Source: Acidobacteriota bacterium (GTDB lineage: Bacteria > Acidobacteriota > Thermoanaerobaculia > Gp7-AA8). From it: a DNA stretch of 64,000 bases. The DNA lies in assembly GCA_003223645.1 (NCBI GenBank), contig QHVT01000026.1:1-64000 (forward strand), in the 5' to 3' direction. Positions 21,975-53,694 of this stretch are shown piece by piece. The first letter of the stretch is position 1. Every line of letters begins with the position of its first letter. The notes below the pieces were generated by a model, which searched no databases, was not told the origin of the DNA, and worked only from the letters and a program-made list of their open reading frames with translations. The position numbers and the translations under genes were made by a program.

Positions 21975-22061
21975 GATGGCCGATGGGCGGATGGCGGATG
22001 GCGGATGGCCAGAGCGCGCGCTGCGTTCCCGCCATCTGCCATCTGCCATCCGCCATCCGCC
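21975..22061. repeat. Family 9 repeat (GGCGGATGGC tandem arms)
   Basis: The left arm is tandem GATGGGCGGATGGCGGATGG, the right arm tandem GCCATCTGCCATCTGCCATC, with an AGAGCGCGCGCTGCG centre. It stands in the control region between the GntR gene and the large pectinase. A second copy lies at 53707 before an MFS gene. Confidence 0.85.
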
Positions 22062-22172: not shown

Positions 22173-25100
22173 TTGAGACGGATTGGTCTGACCTTATCGA
22201 TCGTCTTCGTTCTGCTTGCGGTAGACGCGAGCGGAGAGATCGTTCTTTTCGCCGACTATTCGGACCCCGACGTCATCCGCGTCGGCAACCTCTATTACTT
22301 GGTGTCGTCGAGCTTCGATGCCGTTCCGGGGCTGCCGATTCTGGAGTCGCCCGATCTGCAGCACTGGACGATCATCGGCCACGCGGTGCAACGGTTGCCG
22401 GATTGGGGTTACGCGGTTGCGCAGTCGCGCGGTGACGCGGCGCCGAGCAACCGGGCAACTGCGCAACCGCGCAACCTCATAGGCCACGGCAACGGCTTGT
22501 GGGCGCCGAGCATCCGCTATCACGACGGCTGGTTCTGGATTTACGTTGGCGATCCCGATCGCGGGATTTTCATGACGCGCGCGAAGAATGCGCGCGGGCC
22601 GTGGGCGCCGCTGACGCTCGTCAAAGCAGCGAAGGGTTGGATCGATCCCTGTCCGCTGTGGGATGACGACGGCAACGTCTATCTCGTGCATGCGTGGGCG
22701 AAGAGCCGCGCCGGTTTCAACAGCGTGCTGACGGTCAACAAGTTGACCTCTGACGGCACGCGCGTCGTCGATGACGGCGTGGTCGTGTTCGACGGCCGCG
22801 AGCGCCATCCGACGATCGAGGGTCCGAAGTTCTACAAGCGCAACGGCTGGTACTACATCTTCGCGCCGGCGGGCGGCGTGAAGCGCGGATGGCAGACGGT
22901 GCTGCGCTCGAAGAGCGTATATGGGCCGTACGAGGATCGCGTGATTCTCGAGGATGGGTTGCACCAGGGAGCCTATGTCGAAGGAACGTCTGACGACTGG
23001 TTCGTGCATTTTCAGGATCGCGGCGCGTACGGACGGATCGTCCATCGGCAGCGGCTCAAGTGGGTGAATGACTGGCCGGAGATCGAAACCCTTTCCGCGC
23101 CCGAGCCCGCGCCCGCTTCCGCGCCCGGGGTGGGGGAACGTGATCGCTTCGCTCGCCGCCCGCCCCGGGCGCGGAAGCGGGCGCGGGCGCGGGTTGGCGA
23201 AACCAGTGGAGCGGCGGCCGCTTCGGCCGCCGGCCCTCGCGAGAATCCGGCGGCCGAAGCGGCCGCCGCTCCACAGACTTCGGACGAATTCAATTCGATC
23301 GGCTTCCAGTGGCAATGGGAAGGAAATCCGCCGAAGGACGCCTACTCGCTGCGCAACGGCAAGCTGCGGCTCTCGGATGCGCCGCTGCTGCAGAAATTCA
23401 GCGCGCCGGCGTTTCATGCGACGACGCTCGTCGATCCTTCGTCGTTGAAGGTCGGCGAGCGCGCGGGGCTCGTGATTTCGGGGACGGAGTCCGCCGAGCT
23501 CGCGATCGCGCGAACGAAGAGCGGGTTCGTCGTCAATCAGGGAGAGGCGTCGCAGCCGATCGCGAACAAGCCCGTGCAATTGCGAGTCACGATCGCGCCG
23601 GAAGCGGTCGCGCGATTCAGCGTCGACGGAAAGCCGATCGGCAAGGCGTTCGTCGTGCGGCCGGGGAAGTGGATCGGCGCGAAGGTCGGCATTTTCGGAC
23701 GAGGCACGTTCGACTGGTTCCACGTCGAGCCGTTCGAGCCGGCGGAGAACGCGAGTCTCGTCGTCGCGCAGGACGGGAGCGGCGACTTCCGCACGATCCA
23801 GGAAGCGATCGACGCGATTCCGGCGGACAACGACGACGATCGCATCATCCTGGTTCGCAACGGCGCGTATCGCGAGAAGCTGATGATCGCGAAGAGTCAC
23901 ATCGCGCTCGTCGGAGAAGATCGCGAGAAGACGCGGATCGAGTTTGCGGAGCTGCGGCGCAATTGGCGCACGTCGCACCCCGATGACTACGGCGCGGCGG
24001 TCGTCAACATCGCCGACGGCGCGACCGACATCATCGTCGCCAATCTCACGGTCCTCAACGACTACGGCCGCACGCACGGCGGTGAGAACGATCATCAGTT
24101 CGCGATTCGTTCTCTTGGTCGCGCGAATCGCCTCGCTGTTTTGCACGCGAACGTGATCGCCGACGGCGGGGACACGTTCAGTCCGTGGAACCACGATACC
24201 GGCATGACGTACGCGAGTGATTCGTATTTCGAAGGCCACGTCGACTACGTCTGTCCGCGCGGCTGGGCGTACATCACCAACAGCCGCTTCTTCGGCCACA
24301 ACGACAACGCGAGCATCTGGCACGACGGCAGCCGCGATCGCGATCAGAAGTTCGTCATTCGCCATTCCTCGTTCGACGGCATCCCGAACTTTCCCCTCGG
24401 CCGCAATCATCGCGACGCGCAGTTCTATCTCGTCGACGTCACGTTCTCGTCGAACATGGCCGACCGCGCGATCTACGCGCCGCCCGCGCCCGACCCGATC
24501 CAGTGGGGCGCGCGCTATTACTTCGAGAACGCCCATCGCAACGGCGGCGATTACGCGTGGTTCGCCGACAACCTCGAGACCGCCGACGGCGCGCCGCGCG
24601 ACGAAGACATCACCGCGCCGTGGACGTTCGGCGGGCGCTGGGATCCGGCGTCGCTGCCGCCGGTGCTGCCGTTCGCGTCGATCCCGCGTCCCGAAAACGG
24701 CTGGCGGTGGGTCGATCCAGCGGGAGTGACGCTGCGCTGGACGCGCGCGCGCAACGCACGCCCTTCACCCGCGCCCGCGCCCGCTTCCGCGCCCGGGGTG
24801 GGGGACTTCGTCGCTTCGCTCGCCCCCACCCCGGGCACGGAAGCGGGCTCGGGCGCGGGCTCGGGCGAAGGCTCGGGACGTGCGCAGCGCGTTTGCTTTG
24901 GTGTAGTGCAGGCTTTCCAGCCTGCCCCTCAGCCGCAGGCTGGAAAGCCTGCGCCACACGAGGGATGCACAGACGTTCACGAATCTAAATTCGACACCGG
25001 TCCGCTCCAACCCGGCAAGACGTACGAGTGGCGCATCGATGACGGACCGACATGGACGTTCCGCGCCGATCCGCGCACGACGCGCATCGCGCTCGTCGCC

Positions 25101-26786
25101 GACTCGACGGTGACGGAGAAGCAGGGATGGGGACGCGGCTTCAAGTCGTACGTCGCGGAAAGCGCGGCGGTGTGGAATCTCGCGCGCGGCGGACGCAGCT
25201 CGAAGTCGTATCGCAGCGAAGGTCATTGGAACGACGTGCTGCGCCGGAAGCCGACGCACATCCTCCTGCAGTTCGGACACAACGACGAGCCGGGGAAGGG
25301 GAGCGATCGCGAGACCGATCTGCCCACGTTCAAGGCGAACATGGCGCGCTACGTCGACGACGCGCGCGCCATCGGCGCGGAGCCAATCCTCGTGACGTCG
25401 CTGCCGCGCCGCTACGACGATCCGGTGCTTCCACAGTACGCGGAGATGACGCGCGAAGTCGCGAAGGAGAAGAACGTCGCGCTCATCGATCTCAATGTAA
25501 AAGCGCGCGAGTTCGGCGACGCGTCGATCGGCCCGCTGAAAACGGACGGAACGATCGACAAGACGCATCTCAATGCCGAAGGGAGCGCGATCATCGGCGC
25601 GCTGATGGCGAGCGAAGTGCGCGCCGCCGTGCCGTCGCTCGCGCCGCACATCCGCGCTGCGAATTTGAGGAAGCCGCAAGGCGCGTGGTCGACGCGCATG
25701 GCCGACGCCGTGATGAAGCGCAATCCCGACGCGTCGACCGTCGACGGCAATCGCTGGGAGTACACGCCGGGACTGGTGATGAAGGCGATGTTCGACGTCG
25801 CGCAGCGCACCGGCGACGATCGCTACTTCAATTACGCCAAGTCGTATTACGACGCGTTCATCGCTCCCGACGGCACGATTCGCGGCGGCTACAACAAAGA
25901 CGACTACAACATCGATCGCATCAATCCCGGCAAGCCGCTGTTTCTGTTGTACGCAAAAACGAAAGACGAAAAGTATCGCGAGGCGATTGAGACGCTGCGC
26001 CAGCAGATGCGCGAGCATCCCCGCACGTCCGAGGGCGGGTTCTGGCACAAGAAGCGGTACCCGTATCAGATGTGGCTCGACGGCTTGTACATGGGCGCAC
26101 CGTTTCTCGCGCAGTACGCGAAGACGTTCCACGAGCCCGCGCTGTTCGACGACGTGATCAACCAATACGTGCTGATGGAGAAGCACGCGCGCGACGAGAA
26201 GACGGGACTGCTGGTTCACGGCTGGGACGAGAAGCGCGCGCAGAAGTGGGCCGATCCCACGACCGGACGCTCGCCCGCATTCTGGGGACGCGCGATGGGG
26301 TGGTACGCGATGGGACTCGTCGAAACGCTCGACTACGTGCCGCTCGATCATCCGCGCCGCGGCGAGTTGATCGCTATCCTGCAGCGGCTCGCGGAAGCGG
26401 TCGTGAAAGTGCAAGACCCGAACACGGGGGTGTGGTGGCAGGTCGTCGATCAGCCGGGACGCGACGGCAACTATCTCGAGTCCTCCGCCTCCACGATGTT
26501 CGCCTTCGCTCTCCTCAAGTCCACACGCCTCGGCTACATCGATCCGCCCTATCGCACTGCCGCGCGCCGCGCGTACGAAGGCATCATCAAGAACTTCATC
26601 ACCGTTGAGGACGGAGTCGTCAACATCAATCAGGCTTGCGCCGTCGCCGGCCTCGGCGGCGATCCCGAGAAAGGGGAGCGCTATCGCTCCGGCACCTTTG
26701 ATTACTACGTCACGGAGCCGGTGCGCAGCAACGACCCGAAGGCGGTCGGGCCGTTCATTTTCGCGAGTTTGGAGATGGAGCGATAA
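22173..26786 (+). CDS. Five-domain secreted pectin-degrading enzyme (GH43-CE8-SGNH-GH105)
   Basis: A 1537-residue secreted fusion. Signal peptide 1-20 (LTLSIVFVLLAV). GH43 about 21-305: base Asp in FADYSDPDVIRV, WIDPCPLWDDDG, acid Glu in IEGPKFYKRNG. GH43 C-terminal beta-sandwich about 370-528. CE8 pectin methylesterase about 530-830: DGSGDFRTIQEAI, SDSYFEGHVDYVCPRG with the catalytic Asp. An Fn3-like segment, then SGNH esterase about 965-1155 (LVADSTVT, QFGHNDE, DKTHLN), like rhamnogalacturonan acetylesterase. GH105 unsaturated rhamnogalacturonyl hydrolase about 1165-1537 (FWHKKRYPYQMWLDGLYMGA). Palindromic repeats lie in frame at residues 79-101, 308-367, 866-903 and 910-929. It would remove arabinan side chains, methyl and acetyl groups and unsaturated ends. 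TTG start; no better start found. Confidence 0.92.
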   Translation: MRRIGLTLSIVFVLLAVDASGEIVLFADYSDPDVIRVGNLYYLVSSSFDAVPGLPILESPDLQHWTIIGHAVQRLPDWGYAVAQSRGDAAPSNRATAQPRNLIGHGNGLWAPSIRYHDGWFWIYVGDPDRGIFMTRAKNARGPWAPLTLVKAAKGWIDPCPLWDDDGNVYLVHAWAKSRAGFNSVLTVNKLTSDGTRVVDDGVVVFDGRERHPTIEGPKFYKRNGWYYIFAPAGGVKRGWQTVLRSKSVYGPYEDRVILEDGLHQGAYVEGTSDDWFVHFQDRGAYGRIVHRQRLKWVNDWPEIETLSAPEPAPASAPGVGERDRFARRPPRARKRARARVGETSGAAAASAAGPRENPAAEAAAAPQTSDEFNSIGFQWQWEGNPPKDAYSLRNGKLRLSDAPLLQKFSAPAFHATTLVDPSSLKVGERAGLVISGTESAELAIARTKSGFVVNQGEASQPIANKPVQLRVTIAPEAVARFSVDGKPIGKAFVVRPGKWIGAKVGIFGRGTFDWFHVEPFEPAENASLVVAQDGSGDFRTIQEAIDAIPADNDDDRIILVRNGAYREKLMIAKSHIALVGEDREKTRIEFAELRRNWRTSHPDDYGAAVVNIADGATDIIVANLTVLNDYGRTHGGENDHQFAIRSLGRANRLAVLHANVIADGGDTFSPWNHDTGMTYASDSYFEGHVDYVCPRGWAYITNSRFFGHNDNASIWHDGSRDRDQKFVIRHSSFDGIPNFPLGRNHRDAQFYLVDVTFSSNMADRAIYAPPAPDPIQWGARYYFENAHRNGGDYAWFADNLETADGAPRDEDITAPWTFGGRWDPASLPPVLPFASIPRPENGWRWVDPAGVTLRWTRARNARPSPAPAPASAPGVGDFVASLAPTPGTEAGSGAGSGEGSGRAQRVCFGVVQAFQPAPQPQAGKPAPHEGCTDVHESKFDTGPLQPGKTYEWRIDDGPTWTFRADPRTTRIALVADSTVTEKQGWGRGFKSYVAESAAVWNLARGGRSSKSYRSEGHWNDVLRRKPTHILLQFGHNDEPGKGSDRETDLPTFKANMARYVDDARAIGAEPILVTSLPRRYDDPVLPQYAEMTREVAKEKNVALIDLNVKAREFGDASIGPLKTDGTIDKTHLNAEGSAIIGALMASEVRAAVPSLAPHIRAANLRKPQGAWSTRMADAVMKRNPDASTVDGNRWEYTPGLVMKAMFDVAQRTGDDRYFNYAKSYYDAFIAPDGTIRGGYNKDDYNIDRINPGKPLFLLYAKTKDEKYREAIETLRQQMREHPRTSEGGFWHKKRYPYQMWLDGLYMGAPFLAQYAKTFHEPALFDDVINQYVLMEKHARDEKTGLLVHGWDEKRAQKWADPTTGRSPAFWGRAMGWYAMGLVETLDYVPLDHPRRGELIAILQRLAEAVVKVQDPNTGVWWQVVDQPGRDGNYLESSASTMFAFALLKSTRLGYIDPPYRTAARRAYEGIIKNFITVEDGVVNINQACAVAGLGGDPEKGERYRSGTFDYYVTEPVRSNDPKAVGPFIFASLEMER
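22408..22475. repeat. Family 11 repeat in frame inside the GH43 domain
   Basis: Arms GTTACGCGGTTGCGCAGTCG and CAACTGCGCAACCGCGCAAC. It is translated as YAVAQSRGDAAPSNRATAQP within a loop before the conserved GNGLWAPSIRYHDG, a place where GH43 enzymes normally have only a few residues. Confidence 0.85.
23096..23194. repeat. Family 1 palindromic repeat, copy D, in frame
   Basis: Almost the same core as copy C. It is read without a stop as an Ala/Pro then Arg-rich linker (PAPASAPGVG..., then PRARKRARARV) between the GH43 catalytic domain and its C-terminal beta-sandwich. Confidence 0.92.
23206..23274. repeat. Family 2 palindromic repeat in frame, next to family 1 copy
   Basis: Arms GTGGAGCGGCGGCCGCTTCG and CGAAGCGGCCGCCGCTCCAC around GCCGCCGGCCCTCGCGAGAA. 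Starting 11 bases after copy D, it extends the same linker (SGAAAASAAGPRENPAAEAA), so two unrelated families were placed side by side in frame. Confidence 0.92.
24768..24879. repeat. Family 1 palindromic repeat, copy E, in frame
   Basis: It interrupts an Fn3-like segment between TLRWTRARNA and RAQRVCFG and is read as PSPAPAPASAPGVG then GTEAGSGAGSGEGSG. The reading frame on the right arm differs from copy D, giving Gly/Ser-rich instead of Arg-rich residues. Confidence 0.92.
24901..24959. repeat. Family 8 palindromic repeat in frame
   Basis: GTGTAGTGCAGGCTTTCCAG with its complement CTGGAAAGCCTGCGCCACAC. It is translated VQAFQPAPQPQAGKPAPHEG in a second loop of the same Fn3-like segment, 21 bases after copy E. 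A second family 8 copy lies at 61392. GGCTTTCCAGCCTGCC elements of this kind are common in several soil phyla. Confidence 0.9.
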
Positions 26787-26795
26787 ATCGTCGCG

Positions 26796-27142
26796 TCATC
26801 CTGAGAGGCTGTGAAAAATCCCTCGTCGCTTGAGGAGCGCGGGCGTCTCGCCCGCAATCGCGGAGCGTCTCGCTCCGCGATCTAGCGCGTCGGGCGAGAC
26901 ACCCGACGCGTGCGGCCGGGACGGCCGCCCTCCTCCGTCTTCAACAACGATTTTTTAACATCCTGAGTCGGCGAAGCGCGACGAAGGATCTCAAGTGCGA
27001 TGAACCTGCAATTTCGAGATCTTCGCCGTCGATGCGGCTTCTTCTAATGACACGCCCCTCATCCGCCCGAAAGGGCGGATGAGGGGCGGTCATTGCGATC
27101 GATGTCTGGCGTATCGCGCAGTGCGCCGACTCAGGATGACGG
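26796..27142. repeat. Composite of family 5, 6 and 7 palindromes
   Basis: Outer family 5 ends are GTCATCCTGAG (26795) and CTCAGGATGACGG (27130-27142). Inside are a family 6 element (26836-26936: GAGGAGCGCGGGCGTCTCGC ... GGCCGGGACGGCCGCCCTCC) with its own inner GCGGAGCGTCTCGCTCCGCG hairpin, a second family 5 arm pair (26960-27020) and a short family 7 hairpin at 27053-27086. There is no gene in the non-overlapping part. The right end supplies the last codons and stop of the pectate-lyase-like gene. Confidence 0.85.
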
Positions 27143-28375
27143 ACGTCCCAGCCGCTTCCACAACGGCGCGACATCCAACTGCCGATCCTCGCGCAATTCC
27201 TTCGACAGCTTCGCGAGCCACGCGCGGCGATCCTTCGGAACGACGAGCGCGCGCTTCGTCGCCTCGCGTTTCGGATAGCCGCCCACTTCGTTCTGACTGT
27301 CGATGATGTGACCGTCGCCGCGGATGATCGACTGCACGATGCGCGCGTCGATCGGATCGCGGCGCGCGGCGCGCGCGCCCGCGGAGCGAAGCGCGCGAGT
27401 GGCATTTGCTCGCGCGTCCCCGCCCGAAGGCGCGCCGGAGGCGCGCACCACTCCGTCGTCCGCTTCCGCTACGCCAAACAAGAGGTTGTCCTGCATCGCC
27501 ACGATCCCTCCCGGATCCACACTCTTCACGAACACTTTCCCCTTCGTGTCCGAGCCCGCGATCGCGACGTTGCCAACGAGCACGGCCTGCGCGGGCACGA
27601 GCATCTTCTGGTTGCCGCGCGCGCCGACGCCGACACAGGCCGCGCTCCAGTTGTACATGACGTTGTCGCGCACGGTCGTGAGCGTCCCGCCTTTGAGTCG
27701 CGGATTGCGCTCGCGGTTGTGCGCGTAGACGCATCCTTCGATCAGCACGTTGCGCACGCCGTCGTGCACGAGCGTCCCCTTCGAATGCTCTCCTTTCGGA
27801 TGGGTCGCGTGCGAGAGTCCCTCCGCGATCAAGCAGCTGCGCAGCGTGATGTCGTGCGCCGTCAAACGGGAGTCTTCGACGTCGCCCGGTCCCGACGTCG
27901 AGAGGTTCTCGTCGATCGCCCACGTCGCCGAACAATGTTCGATCACGACGTTGGATCCGCGGGTCACGCTGATCGCGTCCGGCGCCCACGGCTTCGGTCC
28001 GTCGTCGCCCGGCCGCACGGCGATGTGCTGCACGACGACGTCGTGCGTCTCGATCACCAATCCTCCGCGGATCAGCGTGATGCCGGGATCGGGCGCGGTC
28101 TGGCCGGCGATCGTGAGGTAGGGGTGCTTCACCGAAAGCGATCGCCCGCCGAGATCGATCACGCCGCCGACTTCGAAGACGACCAGCCGCGCACCGTCCG
28201 TTTCCAGCGCCTCGCACAGCGATCCGGGGCCTTTCGCCGCCAGCGTCGTCACGCGCAAAACGGCTCCGTCGATGCCGCCTTCCGTGTGCGCTCCTGTTGA
28301 AATTGGTATGACCAAACTGGCGTCATTCGCGAGAATCGATAGCGCGAGAACGGCAAAAAGCGGGAAATTGGTCAT
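27131..28375 (-). CDS. Secreted pectate-lyase-like right-handed beta-helix protein
   Basis: A 414-residue exported protein. Signal peptide MTNFPLFAVLALSILANDA; an ATG 21 bases earlier is the alternative. Residues 25-300 follow the pectate lyase pattern of PelA/PL1-like proteins: GSLCEALETDGARLVVFEVGG, LTIAGQTAPDPGITLIRGGL, VIEHCSATWAIDENLS and LIEGCVYAHNRERNPRLKGG, with the Arg-Pro-rich active region. A family 3 palindrome adds VVRASGAP...ANATRAL... residues near 305-325. The end RPSS and stop come from a family 5 arm (CTCAGGATGACGG). The signal peptide and GH28/GH105 neighbours suggest action on polygalacturonan outside the cytoplasm. Confidence 0.87.
   Translation of the reverse strand: MTNFPLFAVLALSILANDASLVIPISTGAHTEGGIDGAVLRVTTLAAKGPGSLCEALETDGARLVVFEVGGVIDLGGRSLSVKHPYLTIAGQTAPDPGITLIRGGLVIETHDVVVQHIAVRPGDDGPKPWAPDAISVTRGSNVVIEHCSATWAIDENLSTSGPGDVEDSRLTAHDITLRSCLIAEGLSHATHPKGEHSKGTLVHDGVRNVLIEGCVYAHNRERNPRLKGGTLTTVRDNVMYNWSAACVGVGARGNQKMLVPAQAVLVGNVAIAGSDTKGKVFVKSVDPGGIVAMQDNLLFGVAEADDGVVRASGAPSGGDARANATRALRSAGARAARRDPIDARIVQSIIRGDGHIIDSQNEVGGYPKREATKRALVVPKDRRAWLAKLSKELREDRQLDVAPLWKRLGRPSS
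27397..27454. repeat. Family 3 palindromic repeat in frame, left arm decayed
   Basis: The right arm GGCGCGCCGGAGGCGCGCAC then CACTCC is intact, while the left arm has diverged. It encodes VVRASGAPSGG and a following Ala/Arg-rich stretch in the late beta-helix region of the lyase-like protein. The decayed arm suggests an older insertion than those at 33195 and 43241. Confidence 0.8.
28303..28315. promoter_or_regulatory. Operator-like palindrome inside the lyase gene start
   Basis: TTGGT-ATG-ACCAA is a perfect palindrome of the UxuR/ExuR type. It lies 60 bases into the lyase-like coding sequence (SLVIPIS) and about 80 bases upstream of the TonB receptor promoter, suited for looping or auxiliary binding. 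Confidence 0.5.
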
Positions 28376-32043: not shown

Positions 32044-33093
32044 GTGAACCGATTTTGCTACCTGGCGGCGGCTCTCGGAGCCGCCGTCAGCGTCTCCGCC
32101 GCCACCACCGTCATCGTTCGCAATGATCTCGACCTCGCGCGCCCGTCCGAAACGGTCGAGGTGAGCGCGGCTTCGCTTGCGCCGCTCGGCGACGATCTCA
32201 CGCGTGTTCACGTGTACGAGAACGGCGTCGAAGTCCTCGCACAATCGATCGACGGGTGGTTGATTTTTCAAACCGACATGCCGCCGAAGGGCGTGAAATC
32301 GTTCGAGCTGCGACTCGGCGAGAAGCGCGTCTACAAACGCGCCGACTTTCGCGTGTACGGACGATTCGTGCGCGAGCGCTTCGATGATTTCGCGTGGGAA
32401 AACGATCGCGTCGCGCATCGCATGTACGGCGCGGCGCTGGAGACGTGGCAGAAAGAGCCGCTGACGTCGAGCACCGTCGACGTCTGGCTCAAACGCACGC
32501 GACGGCTCGTGATCAACGACTGGTACCTGGTCGACGACTATCACCGCGACACCGGCGAAGGCGCCGATTTTTATTCGGCCGGAAAAAGCCGCGGCTGCGG
32601 CGGCGGGGGAGTGTGGCGCGACGGAAAGCTCGTGGTGTCGAAAAACTTCCGCGACTCGAAAGTCCTCGCCAACGGCCCGATTCGCCTGATCTTCGAGCTG
32701 TACTATCCCGACTTCAAGGAAACGAAGCGCATCACCCTCGACGCGGGACAAAACTTCAATCGCTTCGAGAGCAACGTCACCGACACTGCCGGCATCAAGA
32801 AAACGCAGACGCAGAACATGCGGATCGATCGCGATCACGGAATCCTCCGCGCCTGGGACTCCGTCGCCAACAACAACGGCGAGTTCGGCTGCGCGGTCGT
32901 GTTCGATCCGAAGGCCGAGGTTGCGGAAGCGGATGGCAATCAACTCTTTGTCACGAAGACGCCGCAACCGTATTGGGTGGGCACGGGCTGGGATCGCAGC
33001 GGCGACTTCGCGAACCGCGACGCGTTCGATCGCTACGTCGATCAGTTCGTGCAGAGATTGCGCTCGCCGGTGCGTGTCGAGGTGAAACCGTGA
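32044..33093 (+). CDS. DUF4861 family secreted protein
   Basis: A 349-residue exported protein. Signal peptide MNRFCYLAAALGAAVSVSAA from the GTG at 32044. The body matches DUF4861 proteins of pectin loci (VRNDLDLARPSETVEV, FDDFAWENDRVAHRMYGAAL, DDYHRDTGEGADFYSAGKSRGCGG, ending GDFANRDAFDRYV). The fold suggests a carbohydrate-active beta-sandwich; activity is unproven. It follows the TonB receptor by 13 bases and overlaps the GH28 start by four bases, so all three are one transcript. A role in handling pectin oligosaccharides in the periplasm is inferred from context. Confidence 0.88.
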   Translation: MNRFCYLAAALGAAVSVSAATTVIVRNDLDLARPSETVEVSAASLAPLGDDLTRVHVYENGVEVLAQSIDGWLIFQTDMPPKGVKSFELRLGEKRVYKRADFRVYGRFVRERFDDFAWENDRVAHRMYGAALETWQKEPLTSSTVDVWLKRTRRLVINDWYLVDDYHRDTGEGADFYSAGKSRGCGGGGVWRDGKLVVSKNFRDSKVLANGPIRLIFELYYPDFKETKRITLDAGQNFNRFESNVTDTAGIKKTQTQNMRIDRDHGILRAWDSVANNNGEFGCAVVFDPKAEVAEADGNQLFVTKTPQPYWVGTGWDRSGDFANRDAFDRYVDQFVQRLRSPVRVEVKP

Positions 33094-34550
33094 AGCCTTC
33101 TTTGGACTGCGGCAGCCACGCTGCCGCTTTCCCACACTTCACGCGCCGCACGCTCCTCCGCAACACGCTCATCGCCGGCACCGGCATCGCGTTCGGAGTG
33201 GTGCGCGCCTCCGGCGCGCCCCCGCCCCAAGGCGCGCCGGAGGCGCGCACCACTCCACAAGATCCGTGGGACGCGCTGCCCGACATCCTCGCGCGCATCG
33301 GTCCTCCCAACATCCCGCGCCGCGACTTCGTCGTGAAGAAAGGCGCGATCCAGAAAACGATCGACGCCGCATTCAAAGCCGGAGGCGGACGCGTCGTCGT
33401 TCCCGCGGGCGACTATGAAGTCGCGCCGATTCATCTGAAAAGCAGAATCGAGTTGCACGTCGCGAAAGACGCGACGCTGCGCTTCACGCGCGACACGTCC
33501 AGGTACCCGCTCGTCCTCACGCGCTGGGAAGGTGTCGAGCTGATGAACTACTCGCCGCTCATTTACGCGCTCGACTGCGAAGACATCGCCATCACCGGCG
33601 ACGGCACGCTCGATGGACAAGCGGATGAAGAGCATTGGTGGCCGTGGAAAGGCGTCGTCACCGGCAAGCGCGACGACGTCACGAAAAACGCCGACGTTCC
33701 CGCGCCGCAGCTCGCCGACCGCAACGCGCTCTTCAGGATGGGGCAGGACGGAGTGCCGGTCGCGGAGCGCGTGTTCGGCGCGGGACATTTTTTGCGCCCG
33801 ACGTTCATCGAGCCGTATCGTTGCAGGAACGTGCTCATCGAAGGACTGACGATCAGGAACGCGCCGTTCTGGGTCACGCATCCGACGCTCTCCTCGAACG
33901 TCATCGTGCGCGGCATCACCGTGATCTCGCACGGACCGAACAACGACGGCTGCGATCCCGAATGCTCGCGCGACGTGCTGATCGAGAACTGCGTCTTCGA
34001 CACCGGCGACGACTGCATCGCGCTGAAGTCGGGACGCAACAACGACGGACGCCGCGTGAACGTGCCGGTCGAGAATGTCGTCATTCGCAACTGTGAAATG
34101 CGCGACGGTCACGGCGGCATCACCATCGGCAGTGAAGTGAGCGGCGGCGCGCGCAACGTCTTCGCCGAGAAGTGCCGGCTCGACAGCCCGAACCTCGAGC
34201 GCGGCCTGCGCCTCAAGACGAACACCGTCCGCGGCGGCGTGATCGAGAACGTCTTCGTGCGCGACATCGAGATCGGCAACGTCAAGCTCGCGCCGATCGA
34301 GATCGACCTCCGCTACGAGCCACCCGAGTCCGGACCGTTCATCCCCGAAGTGCGCAACGTGCGCGTGGAGCGCATGACGTCGAAGAGCAGCAAACACGCG
34401 ATCTACATCCGCGGGCTGGAACAGGCGCCGCTGAAAAACATCGTCGTGCGCGACAGCGTCTTCCGCGGCGTCGCGCAGGGCGACATCATCGAAGGCGCCG
34501 TCGACCTCACCCTCGAGCGCGTCATCACCGAAGGAGAAATCAAGAAATGA
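33090..34550 (+). CDS. GH28 polygalacturonase with repeat-derived Tat signal region
   Basis: A 486-residue glycoside hydrolase of family 28. The export signal is Tat-like: FTRRTLLRNTLIAGTGIAF. The residues before it (MKPSLDCGSHAAAF) come from a family 4 repeat arm, and the cleavage region VVRASGAPPP from a family 3 palindrome. The catalytic beta-helix carries GPNNDGCDPE (NxD), DTGDDCIALKSG (DD), GHGGITIGSE (GHG) and RGLRLKTN (RxK), the complete GH28 set. It hydrolyses polygalacturonan, probably exo-acting by similarity to bacterial secreted forms. The GTG start overlaps the DUF4861 stop, and the stop overlaps the next ATG. Confidence 0.95.
   Translation: MKPSLDCGSHAAAFPHFTRRTLLRNTLIAGTGIAFGVVRASGAPPPQGAPEARTTPQDPWDALPDILARIGPPNIPRRDFVVKKGAIQKTIDAAFKAGGGRVVVPAGDYEVAPIHLKSRIELHVAKDATLRFTRDTSRYPLVLTRWEGVELMNYSPLIYALDCEDIAITGDGTLDGQADEEHWWPWKGVVTGKRDDVTKNADVPAPQLADRNALFRMGQDGVPVAERVFGAGHFLRPTFIEPYRCRNVLIEGLTIRNAPFWVTHPTLSSNVIVRGITVISHGPNNDGCDPECSRDVLIENCVFDTGDDCIALKSGRNNDGRRVNVPVENVVIRNCEMRDGHGGITIGSEVSGGARNVFAEKCRLDSPNLERGLRLKTNTVRGGVIENVFVRDIEIGNVKLAPIEIDLRYEPPESGPFIPEVRNVRVERMTSKSSKHAIYIRGLEQAPLKNIVVRDSVFRGVAQGDIIEGAVDLTLERVITEGEIKK
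33098..33136. repeat. Family 4 half-copy at the GH28 start
   Basis: TTTGGACTGCGGCAGCCACG then CTGCCGCTTT equals the left arm of the composite at 14924. It starts six bases into the GH28 gene and encodes LDCGSHAAAF, so the gene's start codon context and first residues are repeat-derived. Confidence 0.85.
33195..33256. repeat. Family 3 palindromic repeat in frame in GH28
   Basis: GGAGTGGTGCGCGCCTCCGG with arm partner CCGGAGGCGCGCACCACTCC around CGCGCCCCCGCCCCAAGGCG. It encodes GVVRASGAPPPQGAPEARTT, which spans the expected signal peptidase region and the start of the mature enzyme. Confidence 0.92.
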
Positions 34551-35407
34551 CTTTCCCCGCGATCGATGCAACGACGTGCGTCGTACGCGACACCGCCAGC
34601 CAACGCGGACGGCACATCTCCGTCAAACCCGGAACCACCGCCGCGCAGCATTTGTACTACGGCCGGATCGTTCTGAGTGGAGCGGCGCCCGCTTCGGGCG
34701 CCGAAACCCCGACGGCCGAAGCGGCCGCCGCTCCACAGTCCGTCGCGTTTTCCACAGAAGATCGCGAAACCGCATTGATCTGCCTGCGCGGAAACGCACG
34801 CGTCGATGCCGGCGAGACTTTCGAACTCGAAAAATACGACGCCCTCTACATCCCCCGCGACACTGAAGTCACGGTCACCGGCACCTGCGATCTCGCCGAA
34901 GTCGCCGCACCCGTCGAAGCGCATCATCCGCTCCAATTCATCCGTTTCGCCGACGTCCAGAACGATCCCGCGCTGCACTTCGACACCGGCGGTCCTTCGT
35001 CGCAACGCACGCTCAACATTCTCATCGGCAAGAACGTCGAAGCGGGACGCATCCTCGCCGGCGTCACGTTCTCGAAGCCCGGCAACTGGACGTCGTGGCC
35101 GCCGCATGAACACGCGCGGCTCGCCGAGGAGGCGTATCTCTATATCGAGATGCCGGAGCCGGGATGGGGACTGCAGCTCGTCTACAACGATCCGCGCAAT
35201 CCCGAGTTGGTCGCGGTCGTGAAGCAGGACGACGTCGTGATCATGCCGCAGGGCTATCACCCCAACGTCTCCGCGCCCGGCGGTACGATCAACTTCCTCT
35301 GGATGATGGCCGCGAATCGCGAGGACGTCGACCGCCAGTTCGGCGTCGTCAACGTGCAACCCGAATACGCAACCGGCGGATCGGGACTCGAGGCGTCGAG
35401 AAAATGA
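34547..35407 (+). CDS. KduI/IolB-fold uronate isomerase
   Basis: A 286-residue cupin of the KduI/IolB family, closer to IolB (5-deoxy-glucuronate isomerase) than to E. coli KduI. The metal site reads SWPPHEHARLAEEAYLYIEM, with a later GYHPNVSAPGG His. In a pectin locus with KduD, KDG kinase and KDPG aldolase it most likely isomerises 4-deoxy-5-hexosulose-uronate to 2,5-diketo-3-deoxygluconate. An inositol role is less likely because no iol genes are present. A family 2 palindrome inserts about 20 residues (GAAPASGAETPTAEAAAAPQ) after YYGRIVLS in a surface loop. The ATG overlaps the GH28 stop. Confidence 0.85.
   Translation: MTFPAIDATTCVVRDTASQRGRHISVKPGTTAAQHLYYGRIVLSGAAPASGAETPTAEAAAAPQSVAFSTEDRETALICLRGNARVDAGETFELEKYDALYIPRDTEVTVTGTCDLAEVAAPVEAHHPLQFIRFADVQNDPALHFDTGGPSSQRTLNILIGKNVEAGRILAGVTFSKPGNWTSWPPHEHARLAEEAYLYIEMPEPGWGLQLVYNDPRNPELVAVVKQDDVVIMPQGYHPNVSAPGGTINFLWMMAANREDVDRQFGVVNVQPEYATGGSGLEASRK
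34677..34736. repeat. Family 2 palindromic repeat in frame in the isomerase
   Basis: GTGGAGCGGCGCCCGCTTCG and CCGAAGCGGCCGCCGCTCCA arms around GCGCCGAAACCCCGACGG. Exactly 60 bases, so it adds 20 codons without disturbing the frame. Confidence 0.92.
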
Positions 35408-42081: not shown

Positions 42082-43554
42082 TCACAGTGAAGAAAACGCT
42101 GCGGCGAGCCGCTGCACGCCGCGCGTGATGTCGGCGGTCGCAACGGTCGTGTAGCCGAGGAGCAGCGTCGCGTGACGCGGCGCGCGCTGGTAGTAGGGAC
42201 GTCCGCTGTACACGAGCACGCCGGCGTCGCGCGCCGCGATGAGCAACTGTTCGGTTGCATTTGCGCGCAAATGCCGAAAGCGCAAGAAGATGTGCGTGCC
42301 GGACGCCTCGCCGCTCGCGATCACGTCGTCGTCGGAGAAATGCTCGCGGATCGCGGCGACGATGCGATCGCGCTTCTCCGTCAGCGCGCGCACGCCGCGG
42401 CGGCGCAGCGACTCGTACGCGCCCGACTCGAGGAGCGACGCGACGGCCTGCTGTTCGAGCGCCGGACTGCCGCGATCGGCGAGCCACTTGACCGCGCGGA
42501 ACGCGTCGCGGAGCGCGCGCGGCGCGACGATGTATCCGAGGCGCAGGGCGGGGAAGAGCGTGCGCGCGAACGTGCCGACGTAGATCACGCGTCCGCCGCC
42601 GTCGAGTCCCTGCAGCGCCGGAATCGCGCCGACGCCGTAGCGGAACTCGCAGTCGTAGTCGTCCTCGATGATCCACGCGCGCCGCTTGTCCGCCCACTGC
42701 AAGAGCGCGAGACGTCGCGCTGCGCTCATGATCGCGCCGGTTGGAAACTGATGCGACGGCGTGACGCACACCGCGCGTGCGTGTCCGAGGCGATCGACGC
42801 GCAGACCTTCGTCATCGACGGGACACGGGATCACGTGCGCGCCCGCTGCGAGAAATGCCTGGCGCGTTCCCTGATAGTGCGGGTCTTCGATGCCGATGCG
42901 CGTGCCGCGATCGCACAGCACGCGCGCGGTGAGATCGATCGCCTGCTGCGCGCCGCCGACGATCACGATGTCGTCCGCGTCCGCGATCACACCGCGCTGC
43001 TCGCGCAGATACGTCGCCAGCACGCGCCGCAGCGAAGGGAGACCCGCCGGATCGGGATAGTCGACGTACGGCTCCGCGGCGGCACGCGCGATGGCCTGCC
43101 GCCAGAGCGCGACCGTGCGCGCGTCGGGGACAATGGTCGCGTAGCGAAAATCGATCGCGCCTTTCGCGCGGCGCGGCTGCTGTCCGGGTGGCTCCTGCGG
43201 CGAGAGTCGCTGCGCTCTTCGCGCGTAGTGCGAGATGACCGGAGTGGTGCGTGCCTCCGGCGCGCCTCCGCCCAAAGGCGCGCCGGAGGCGCGCACCACT
43301 CCATCCACCTGCAAGGCCACGCGCGATCCCGCTCCAACCGTCGACTCGATGTACCCCTCGGCGACGAGCTGTTCGAACGCCGACAGCACGACGATGCGCG
43401 ACACGCCGAGGTCGTTCGCGAGCGTGCGCGTGCCGGGGAGGGGAGTGCCGGCGGACAGCTCGCCGCTCAGGATCTTGTCGCGCAACGCTTCGTAGATGCG
43501 GCGGTACAGCGGACCGGATTTAGGGAGGGGGAGGAGCATGTGTTTGCCCGTCAT
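42082..43554 (-). CDS. MocR-type regulator lacking the PLP lysine
   Basis: A 490-residue GntR-aminotransferase fusion. The winged helix is about 15-80 (IYEALRDKILSGELSAGTPL, ANDLGVSRIVVLSAFEQLVA). The linker contains a family 3 palindrome read as VVRASGAPLGGGAPEARTTP. The aminotransferase-like domain is about 125-490: TPSHQFPTGAIMS, WIIEDDYDCEFRY, YVGTFARTLFPALRLGYI. In GabR/PdxR relatives that last motif reads SKTLxPxLRLGY with the Schiff-base Lys; here it is AR, so covalent PLP binding should be lost. The ATG at 43554 lies inside a family 5 arm; MLLPLPKSGPLY from 43539 is the alternative start. Confidence 0.88.
   Translation of the reverse strand: MTGKHMLLPLPKSGPLYRRIYEALRDKILSGELSAGTPLPGTRTLANDLGVSRIVVLSAFEQLVAEGYIESTVGAGSRVALQVDGVVRASGAPLGGGAPEARTTPVISHYARRAQRLSPQEPPGQQPRRAKGAIDFRYATIVPDARTVALWRQAIARAAAEPYVDYPDPAGLPSLRRVLATYLREQRGVIADADDIVIVGGAQQAIDLTARVLCDRGTRIGIEDPHYQGTRQAFLAAGAHVIPCPVDDEGLRVDRLGHARAVCVTPSHQFPTGAIMSAARRLALLQWADKRRAWIIEDDYDCEFRYGVGAIPALQGLDGGGRVIYVGTFARTLFPALRLGYIVAPRALRDAFRAVKWLADRGSPALEQQAVASLLESGAYESLRRRGVRALTEKRDRIVAAIREHFSDDDVIASGEASGTHIFLRFRHLRANATEQLLIAARDAGVLVYSGRPYYQRAPRHATLLLGYTTVATADITRGVQRLAAAFSSL
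43241..43302. repeat. Family 3 palindromic repeat in frame in the MocR linker
   Basis: GGAGTGGTGCGTGCCTCCGG and CCGGAGGCGCGCACCACTCC arms around CGCGCCTCCGCCCAAAGGCG. Same size as the GH28 copy (62 bases including ends) and the same peptide (VVRASGAP...APEARTTP) although this gene is on the other strand: the palindrome gives almost the same product in both orientations. Confidence 0.92.
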
Positions 43555-48982: not shown

Positions 48983-49398
48983 GCGCGCGCATCGACGACT
49001 TCGCGCCGGGACAGCACGCGTCGTTCACGAAGACGTTCACCGAGGAAGATGTGCAGCGGTTCATCGCCATCACCGGCGACGTCAATCCGCTGCATGTCGA
49101 CGACGCCTTCGCGTCGACGACGCGCTTCGGCCGCCGCGTCCTCCACGGCATGCTCACCGCGTCGCTCTTCTCGACGATGGTCGGAATGTTCATTCCCGGC
49201 ACCGGCGCGATCTATCGCTCGCAAACGCTCGCGTTCCTCCGCCCGGTCTACGTCGGCGACACCGTTACCGCGCACTTCACCATCCGCTCCATCGACCGCG
49301 AGAAACACCGCCTCGTCATCGACGCGTGGATCGAAAACGAAGCGGGGGAGCGGGTGGTGGAGGGAGTGTGTGAGGCGGGAGTGTTACGAGGCTCATAG
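48979..49398 (+). CDS. MaoC-like (R)-specific enoyl-CoA hydratase
   Basis: A 139-residue hot-dog-fold hydratase. TFTEEDVQRFIAITGDVNPLHVD holds the catalytic Asp/His dyad, followed by RVLHGMLTASLFSTMVG and SQTLAFLRPVYVGDTV. PhaJ-type enzymes feed (R)-3-hydroxyacyl-CoA to polyester synthesis or fatty-acid pathways. The GTG start overlaps the stop of the hydrolase (GTGA), so the two are translationally coupled. The last residues RGS and the TAG stop come from a family 10 repeat (GGCTCATAG). Confidence 0.9.
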   Translation: MSARIDDFAPGQHASFTKTFTEEDVQRFIAITGDVNPLHVDDAFASTTRFGRRVLHGMLTASLFSTMVGMFIPGTGAIYRSQTLAFLRPVYVGDTVTAHFTIRSIDREKHRLVIDAWIENEAGERVVEGVCEAGVLRGS

Positions 49399-49489
49399 GC
49401 TCATAGGCTCATAGGCGCAGAGGCGCAGAGGCGTCACAGGAGTCTTCAACCCCCTATGAGCCTAGGCGCCTATGCGCCTGTGAGCCTCA
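49388..49489. repeat. Family 10 palindromic tandem repeat (GGCTCATAG units)
   Basis: Tandem GAGGCTCATAGGCTCATAGG on the left and CCTATGCGCCTGTGAGCCTC on the right, with a GGCGCAGAGGCGCAGAGGCG variant inside. The left end supplies the stop of the MaoC gene; the right end touches the stop of the opposite CPXCG gene. Confidence 0.9.
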
Positions 49490-50065: not shown

Positions 50066-50154
50066 AGGAACGCGGAACGCAGAGCGCAGAACGTAGAATT
50101 GAGAAGATGAGTCGTTCTTCGTTCTTCATTCTGCGCTCTGCGTTCTGCGTTCTG
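50066..50154. repeat. Family 12 palindrome (AACGCAGAGCGCAGAAC) over a start codon
   Basis: Left arm GGAACGCGGAACGCAGAGCG, right arm CGCTCTGCGTTCTGCGTTCT with a CTTCGTTCTTC centre. The hydrolase ATG at 50107 lies in the middle, and the right arm encodes its signal peptide (FFILRSAFCVL). The element also covers the control region between the divergent membrane-protein and hydrolase genes. Confidence 0.88.
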
Positions 50155-52896: not shown

Positions 52897-53006
52897 AGGC
52901 GCATGGGCGCATGGGCCACATGGGCACATGGGCTCATAGGCTCATAGGCTCATAGAGAGTACGTACTGTGAGCCTATGAGCCTATGAGCCTATGAGCCTG
53001 TGAGCC
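52897..53006. repeat. Family 10 palindromic tandem repeat, second copy
   Basis: GGGCGCATGGGCCACATGGG, GGCTCATAGGCTCATAGGCT, a near-perfect GAGAGTACGTACTGTGAG centre, then CCTATGAGCCTATGAGCCTA. The right end is read in reverse as the last codons HRLTGS and TAG of the HAD gene. Confidence 0.9.
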
Positions 53007-53694
53007 TGTGATGCCCGGTAATCGCAGACATCAGCGCGCCGAGGTCTTCCGCGTTCTCGAAAAAGAAGCGGGGGTTCTCGGCGCGTAGTGTTTCCGCCGG
53101 AGTTTTTCCGGATGCGACCGCGATCGTGATCGCGTCGTACGGAACGCCGCAGCGGATGTCGTAGATCGAGTCGCCGATGATCACGACTTCGCTGCCGCGG
53201 AAGCGATGGCCGTGCATCTCCGCGGCGCGTTGCATCGCGACCGGCGGGAGTTGATTGCGATCGGCGGAGTCGCTGCCGAAGGCGCCGAAGGGGAAGTATT
53301 CGTTGAGCGCGGCGCCGCCGAGCTTGAGACGCGCGCCCGGCTCGATGTTGCCGGTGAGAAGGCCGAGGATCACCCACGCGTGCGACGCGAGCTCGCCGAC
53401 GAGCGCGCGGATGCCGGGCAGCGCGCGGACGCGCTCGGGCGTCGCGTTGCGCGCGAGGCCGGCGAGATACACGTCCCACAGTTGCGGCAGACGTGCGTCG
53501 ATATCGGCGTCGCGCCAGTCGGCATCGCGCAGCACCATGCGCGCGATCTGTGGATCGGTGCGGCCGGAAAAATCGTAACGCGAGAGATCGCCGCGATAGT
53601 CGTAGACGGCATCGAGCGCCGACCCGAATGCGTCGCGCGCCGCACCGCGGTCGGTGATCAGCGTCCCGTCGATGTCGAAGAGGACTAAGCGCAC
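52990..53694 (-). CDS. HAD-family phosphatase (PGP-like)
   Basis: A 234-residue HAD hydrolase. Motif I FDIDGTLI near the start, motif II in LLTGN, the Lys region GGAALNEYFPFGAFG and motif III IGDSIYDIRCG. A helical cap spans about 15-90. Similar to phosphoglycolate phosphatase-like enzymes. GTG start. The C-terminal TGHHRLTGS and stop are encoded by a family 10 repeat. Confidence 0.88.
   Translation of the reverse strand: MRLVLFDIDGTLITDRGAARDAFGSALDAVYDYRGDLSRYDFSGRTDPQIARMVLRDADWRDADIDARLPQLWDVYLAGLARNATPERVRALPGIRALVGELASHAWVILGLLTGNIEPGARLKLGGAALNEYFPFGAFGSDSADRNQLPPVAMQRAAEMHGHRFRGSEVVIIGDSIYDIRCGVPYDAITIAVASGKTPAETLRAENPRFFFENAEDLGALMSAITGHHRLTGS

Follow-up and report, generated by a model that had tools for sequence, protein, structure and literature searches.

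A probable mosaic of inserted repeats in the Tat-type export signal of a GH28 enzyme, and a mostly intragenic REPIN-like family of one acidobacterial genome

How does the export signal of one enzyme come to be encoded in part by repeats that are dispersed over its genome? The question is raised by a GH28 gene in the window analysed here, a stretch of 64,000 nucleotides from an Acidobacteriota bacterium. A preliminary description of the locus held that the first residues of the enzyme are the left arm of one repeat family (F4), that its cleavage region is a palindrome of another (F3), and that the repeats supply both the n-region and the peptidase site of the signal. The features concerned are as follows.

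33079 to 33082, plus strand: Shine-Dalgarno-like GAGG, 7 nt before GTG 33090 (read from the sequence)
33090 to 34550, plus strand: GH28 gene of 486 aa, with a GTG start overlapping the upstream stop (translation and Pfam)
33100 to 33130, plus strand: F4 REP-like hairpin unit within the codons S-L-D-C-G-S-H-A-A-A-F, n-region extension (30-copy consensus)
33144 to 33149, plus strand: twin-arginine codons R19 R20 (translation; aligned with the RR of 28 relatives selected for RR)
33150 to 33197, plus strand: hydrophobic core TLLRNTLIAGTGIAFG, its last codon GGA common to F3 (AlphaFold2 helix 19-40, hydropathy rule)
33195 to 33256, no strand assigned: F3 REPIN-like palindrome read as GVVRASGAPPPQGAPEARTTP, c-region and linker (perfect inverted repeat)
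33207 to 33212, plus strand: candidate signal peptidase site A40↓S41 within V38-R39-A40↓S41 ((-3,-1) rule; modelled helix end at 40)

The protein belongs to GH28, as it matches PF00295 at residues 236-455 (E 1.9e-31; 109.8 bits against a gathering cut-off of 22.9), and its best NCBIfam relative is of the alpha-D-galacturonidase BT4155 type, at 324 bits well under the cut-off of 800. The gene stands in a row with a TonB-type receptor-like gene (by eye), a DUF4861 gene whose stop it overlaps (sequence GTGA), a KduI-family gene and a PfkB-family kinase, and most of its best-matching relatives bear the label Acidobacteria/Acidobacteriota or Vicinamibacteria. Read from GTG 33090, the N-terminus is MKPSLDCGSHAAAFPHFTRRTLLRNTLIAGTGIAFGVVRASGAPPPQGAPEARTTPQDPW. 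An Rfam scan of the window gave no match.

The F4 origin of the first residues was borne out. The F4 consensus CTTTGGACTGCGGCAGCtACGCTGCCGCTTT is common to 30 genomic copies, 51 copies were found at no more than 3 mismatches against 0 for the reversed control, and one arm alone forms a complete hairpin. A second, inverted half follows many of the 30 copies and is absent from the GH28 copy, a solo F4 read as SLDCGSHAAAF for which the term left arm is fair. With 24 of 30 loci intergenic, F4 fits an extragenic REP better than F3 does; six copies, the GH28 one among them, lie in genes and are read in several frames. For comparison, GH28 relatives were collected (usable matches from 81 of 82 loci), 38 of which had RR together with a start, and n-region lengths were counted on 36 of these, two being excluded for having no hydrophobic stretch. 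In 35 of the 36 only 1-9 residues precede the RR, against 18 in the GH28 protein studied here, and F4 therefore appears to be an n-region extension, one that would lengthen the n-region rather than supply it. The claim that the repeats provide n-region and peptidase site thus stands in so far as the c-region and a lengthening of the n-region are repeat-coded, and fails in so far as an n-region is present in the relatives as well; the signal without F4 would be expected to stay a normal Tat-type one.

Between the two repeats, sequence and translation hold just the RR motif and the hydrophobic core, as had been described. An RR followed by a hydrophobic core near the N-terminus is what a Tat signal calls for, and the GH28 protein has both, the relatives compared having been selected for RR. 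The suggested Tat prediction lent no support: the Tat HMMs PF10518 and TIGR01409 did not match the GH28 protein at E<=10. The same models match 12 and 10 of 29 aligned proteins, missing the majority of the relatives with RR too, and because no Tat HMM matched, we name the signal Tat-type, not proven Tat. The AlphaFold2 model, built on an alignment of 28 of the 38 RR relatives, has a helix at 19-40, residues 41-58 of low confidence without secondary structure, and a confident strand-rich fold beyond about residue 60, a layout by which F3 would encode the last signal residues and the linker to the enzyme. Comparison with the orthologues agreed, in that they carry a linker of variable length at the F3 position. 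The GH28 signal is thus like the Tat-type signals of its relatives in its RR, its hydrophobic core and the variable linker before DPW..ILARI, and unlike them in its long n-region and its repeat-coded c-region. Signal peptidase sites follow the (-3,-1) rule, to which V-R-A↓S conforms; together with the homologues this makes A40↓S41, within F3, the most likely candidate site. A c-region arginine in Tat signals hinders the Sec path, and the F3 arginine may for this reason even favour Tat use.

A REPIN consists of two REP hairpins, inverted and separated by a short spacer, and F3 has this build. The GH28 copy, at the VVRASGAP stretch where a palindrome had been described, is a perfect inverted repeat of 26+10+26 (arms 33195-33220 and 33231-33256) with a GCGCGCC/GGCGCGC arm stem, encoding residues 36-56. 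F3 is also dispersed in high copy, its arms having 214 genomic matches at no more than 3 mismatches against 0 for the control. We distinguished 92 elements, 74 pairs and 18 solo arms, which form a non-random sample. The best matches to the copy in the window account for 30 loci; most of the others trace to 100 exact arms among the 214 arm matches, and the remainder to sampled stretches. A gene finder based on codon usage and trained on the same genome places 70 of the 92 wholly within genes, 20 as intergenic and 2 as partial, in a genome sample that is 87% coding. F3 is thus a REPIN-like family of one genome, mostly intragenic, and is labelled REPIN-like because REPs are expected to be mainly extragenic; the reading of F3 as an extragenic REP was ruled out by the same count. 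The full 62-mer was absent from 18 other genomes of the order, no F3 was found at up to 1 mismatch in 395 other genomes of the phylum, and viral contigs had 0. Two further copies lie in the window:

43241 to 43302, no strand assigned: F3 pair, in frame in a minus-strand gene (42082-43554; GntR/aminotransferase-type regulator-like by eye)
27429 to 27451, minus strand: solo F3 arm, in frame in a minus-strand gene (27131-28375)

The intragenic copies are nearly always read in one way. The frame VVRASGAP...GAPEARTT is used by 64 of 70, and the other two frames by 4 and 2 (P 3.5e-24 against one third); where both flanks are coding-like, 43 of 47 are in the main frame. About seven of the 64 main-frame copies switch frame in the spacer, so that the second arm is read otherwise. 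In one count, two of ten arms taken as coding (L161; L164 at 12156) give unrelated peptides, probably by chance. Length is biased as well: among intragenic pairs, 47 of 56 have a core (from GTGG to CCAC) whose length is 2 mod 3, against 1 of 18 others (Fisher P 2e-9). The arms of these non-coding pairs are equally well kept, yet a plain frame filter predicts about one third of them in the coding length class, and the shortage of such cores between genes exceeds what the filter would do. Intragenic arms had no synonymous excess over intergenic ones (20 of 45 against 13 of 25 changed codons), and peptide-level selection after insertion therefore receives no support from this comparison.

The majority of F3 copies are found within ordinary cytosolic or membrane proteins. 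Judged by eye, the hosts encode glycerol kinase (with two copies), glucokinase, TilS, TrpA, ABC ATPases, glycosyltransferases and regulators; FGGY domains were found in the glycerol kinase, and the domain search also backs one ABC ATPase (L010). The inserts are absent from relatives of the same family in glycerol kinase at both sites (4 relatives), in TilS (1) and in glucokinase (9 shown), while at the N-terminal site in TrpA (L162) no relative aligned in the insert comparison. Exact empty sites and target duplications were not found, the closest relatives, at 53-67% identity, being too distant. The TilS protein (L177) carries, besides F3, HVIPSVARDLGG and two near-identical RAPAPSLTLG(M/L)TQLVQLQRGA stretches; HVIPSVARDLGG looks like the in-frame translation of a genome repeat, TCATCCCGAGCGT...GAGGGACCT. 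At L016 (1501-1562) a hydrophobic AVALLIVSLG leads into F3 with no ATG, GTG or TTG upstream, so that an unusual start or a broken gene is possible.

Several F3 copies end export signals. By a fixed rule (an early hydrophobic stretch with F3 no more than 12 residues after it), 4 of 70 were seen where 1.13 were expected (P 0.027), namely GH28, L176, L178 and the lipoprotein-like L003, which is a weak enrichment; two cases outside the rule were seen by eye, L025 (TRREVLAVLAFG[AVRASGAL...]) and L207 (MILALVLASG[VVRASGAP]), with F3-coded residues in brackets. In the four exported proteins compared with homologues (GH28, an aldo-keto reductase, an alkaline phosphatase and an outer-membrane-like protein), F3 ends the hydrophobic core and presents a V/A-R-A↓S-type site, where the relatives have other sequence. 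Thus L176 reads MKRFAALTIALFALG[VVRASGAP]PNPVINPDRPG, with ...ALFALG directly before F3, against MKHIAFLVLFFVASAGLAQDADLINPDRPG in the relative L333; relatives have ordinary signals with an A-x-A-type end, such as ...ASAGLA↓QDADLINPDRPG (division by eye). The relatives of the alkaline phosphatase (L178) and of the Tat-type aldo-keto reductase (L025) carry unrelated signals, with RR in three of the L025 relatives shown. An export-specific device was ruled out for F3, as the copies are spread across all sorts of genes.

F5, a sister family of F3 with the TGGAG head in both, points to a possible means of movement. F5 REPINs, and none of F3, flank the sole Y1 transposase (Y1_Tnp) gene of the genome on either side, F3 sharing the TGGAG head only; the flanking F5 copies give the layout of a RAYT/REPIN system, and the shared head suggests that F3 may be moved by the same transposase. 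At this RAYT-type locus (L217 2936-3817; G000:C4:52935-53816; transposase at G000:C4:53122-53433) three downstream F5 REPINs stand in tandem, and the last residues of the transposase look F5-coded by eye. F5 is intragenic in 17 of 37 elements examined, and the frame SGAA(A/P)AS...PAAEAAAAP is that of all 15 forward arms and of 9 of the 13 reverse arms. One such copy lies next to the GH28 gene:

34677 to 34736, no strand assigned: F5 REPIN, in frame near the N-terminus of the KduI-family gene (34547-35407), read as SGAAPASGAETPTAEAAAAPQ

Neither a Y1 transposase match nor F5 was found in a genome of the same genus (G017), which has few repeats in a 340-kb sample; for this repeat poverty only, and never for counts, we used a general k-mer clustering, which lumped large families. 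A genome of another genus in the same family (G006) has 181 F5-like arm matches, and 36 of 39 elements examined are intergenic and 3 intragenic in the F5 frame given above, by gene calls that rest on the codon model of our genome (G000); an F5 arm is near one of its four Y1-type loci examined. F5 being almost wholly intergenic there, the intragenic habit is not due to the repeat alone.

Taken as a whole, the explanation that we consider probable is that the GH28 export signal is a repeat mosaic made by insertion, and one case of a broad in-frame insertion of F3. An ancestral Tat-type signal with a short n-region, RR, hydrophobic core and variable linker would have received two inserts, a solo F4 REP directly behind its start codon and, where the core ends, an F3 REPIN. 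The F3 family, presumably moved by the RAYT-type transposase, would insert with little regard for genes, and copies that break the frame, or whose peptide is basic or rich in Cys/Trp, would be lost, so that the survivors read as a neutral Ala/Gly/Pro/Thr linker; selection of this kind would be the source of the frame bias. At the end of a signal the F3 peptide would offer V-R-A↓S and take over the position of the ancestral cleavage site. The repeats, the frame bias, the length bias and the absence of inserts from relatives are the observed parts of this account. It is unlikely that the single frame was set by insertion itself, through a short target at a fixed codon position and in-phase landing. 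The ends of F3 are indeed nearly invariant (on the left, 73 of 74 pairs have G or C followed by G, with A next in 69; on the right, 72-73 of 74 have TC, followed by C or G), and both F3 and F5 are read so that GGA forms a codon, but the downstream arm is also in frame, through spacers of 7, 10, 13 and 19 nt, non-coding copies differ in length, and a target preference by itself leaves spacer length unfixed.

If F3 had been selected in export genes for its usefulness as a portable linker with a cleavage site, the four homologue-checked signals and the enrichment would be accounted for, but most copies are elsewhere and the enrichment may merely reflect the tolerance of c-regions for inserts; we judge such selection quite unlikely. 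A start at one of the two in-frame GTG codons within F3 (33198 or 33201, behind GGAG) would yield a protein without a signal peptide, that is, a cytosolic enzyme with a fortuitous RR and with the repeats outside the functional protein. We hold this to be highly improbable: the GGAG is too near these codons, whereas GTG 33090 has a good ribosome site and the overlap with the upstream stop, and the RR and core match the 28 aligned relatives. Between F4 and the RR codons there is no in-frame ATG, GTG or TTG, the only nearby starts being GTG 33090 and TTG 33102, and no start downstream of the repeats brings a complete signal peptide of its own. Least credible of all is that the hosts are decaying pseudogenes; the frame shift inside some copies and the missing usual start of L016 would suit it, but open frames with coding-like codon use lie on both sides of F3 in 47 of 70, and enzymes such as TilS and TrpA are among the hosts. 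Beyond the probable mosaic, we put forward tentatively, and as rather less than an even chance, that a REPIN family has turned into a translated element. Its sequence would have come to rest on one benign frame, giving an Ala/Gly/Pro/Thr linker that contains a signal peptidase motif, and the element could thereby spread through genes instead of between them and repeatedly rebuild Tat/Sec cleavage ends. If true, the proteome would be being dotted with one selfish linker.

Protein-coding palindromes are best known from Rickettsia, and also from Wolbachia. PMC2229807 describes Rickettsia palindromic elements (RPE) as short palindromes that have entered numerous conserved protein genes in frame and are translated and tolerated, and an RPE-bearing guanylate kinase as active. 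F3 resembles RPE in its in-frame insertion into protein genes and in the lack of the insert in relatives, and differs in its 60-odd bp, GC-rich sequence, REPIN build, large 6.4-Mb genome and restriction to one genome; the likeness drawn here is one of mode of working, not of family membership. A 2013 survey (BMC Genomics, PMC3733652) gives REPs as mostly intergenic; Opitutus terrae and R. conorii are listed there with intragenic ones, and of the inserts more than half encode 20-30 residues. F3 is like REPINs in its inverted pair of REP hairpins, and unlike the REPs of that survey in being mostly intragenic and nearly always in one frame. Delihas 2007 (PMC2759123) describes a YPAL/RU-2 element within the signal peptide predicted for Yersinia YPO1552; that element has 168 bp, is partly hydrophobic and concerns one protein, whereas F3 provides c-region and cleavage motif for four proteins compared with homologues. 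A further paper (PMC6649704) deals with palindromes within mitochondrial genes of worms. The literature searched, with few subscription journals, reported no mainly intragenic REPIN family and no REPIN-supplied signal peptidase sites.

The larger meaning of the locus is that a REPIN-like family of a large bacterial genome is translated in one frame, the GH28 signal being a clear example. The reduced genomes of Rickettsia and its like invite the idea that weak selection permits coding palindromes; here a large genome has 64 single-frame insertions among those examined. A large host, a Y1 transposase tied to F5 and a related genome with almost only intergenic F5 allow mutation, target choice and selection to be tested against each other as sources of the frame, and signal peptides would have a route to change their cleavage end in one step. 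The window holds other repeats too. Within the open frame of the gene at 22173-26786 we observed two F1 repeats and one F5 repeat:

23111 to 23274, no strand assigned: F1 and F5 repeats inside this gene, with the second F1 at 24779-24848

Many more short-repeat families, inverted or tandem (GGCTCATA, GGCGGATGGC, GAACGCAGA), occur in the window at 49382-49487, 52913-53016, 21986-22054 and 50068-50152.
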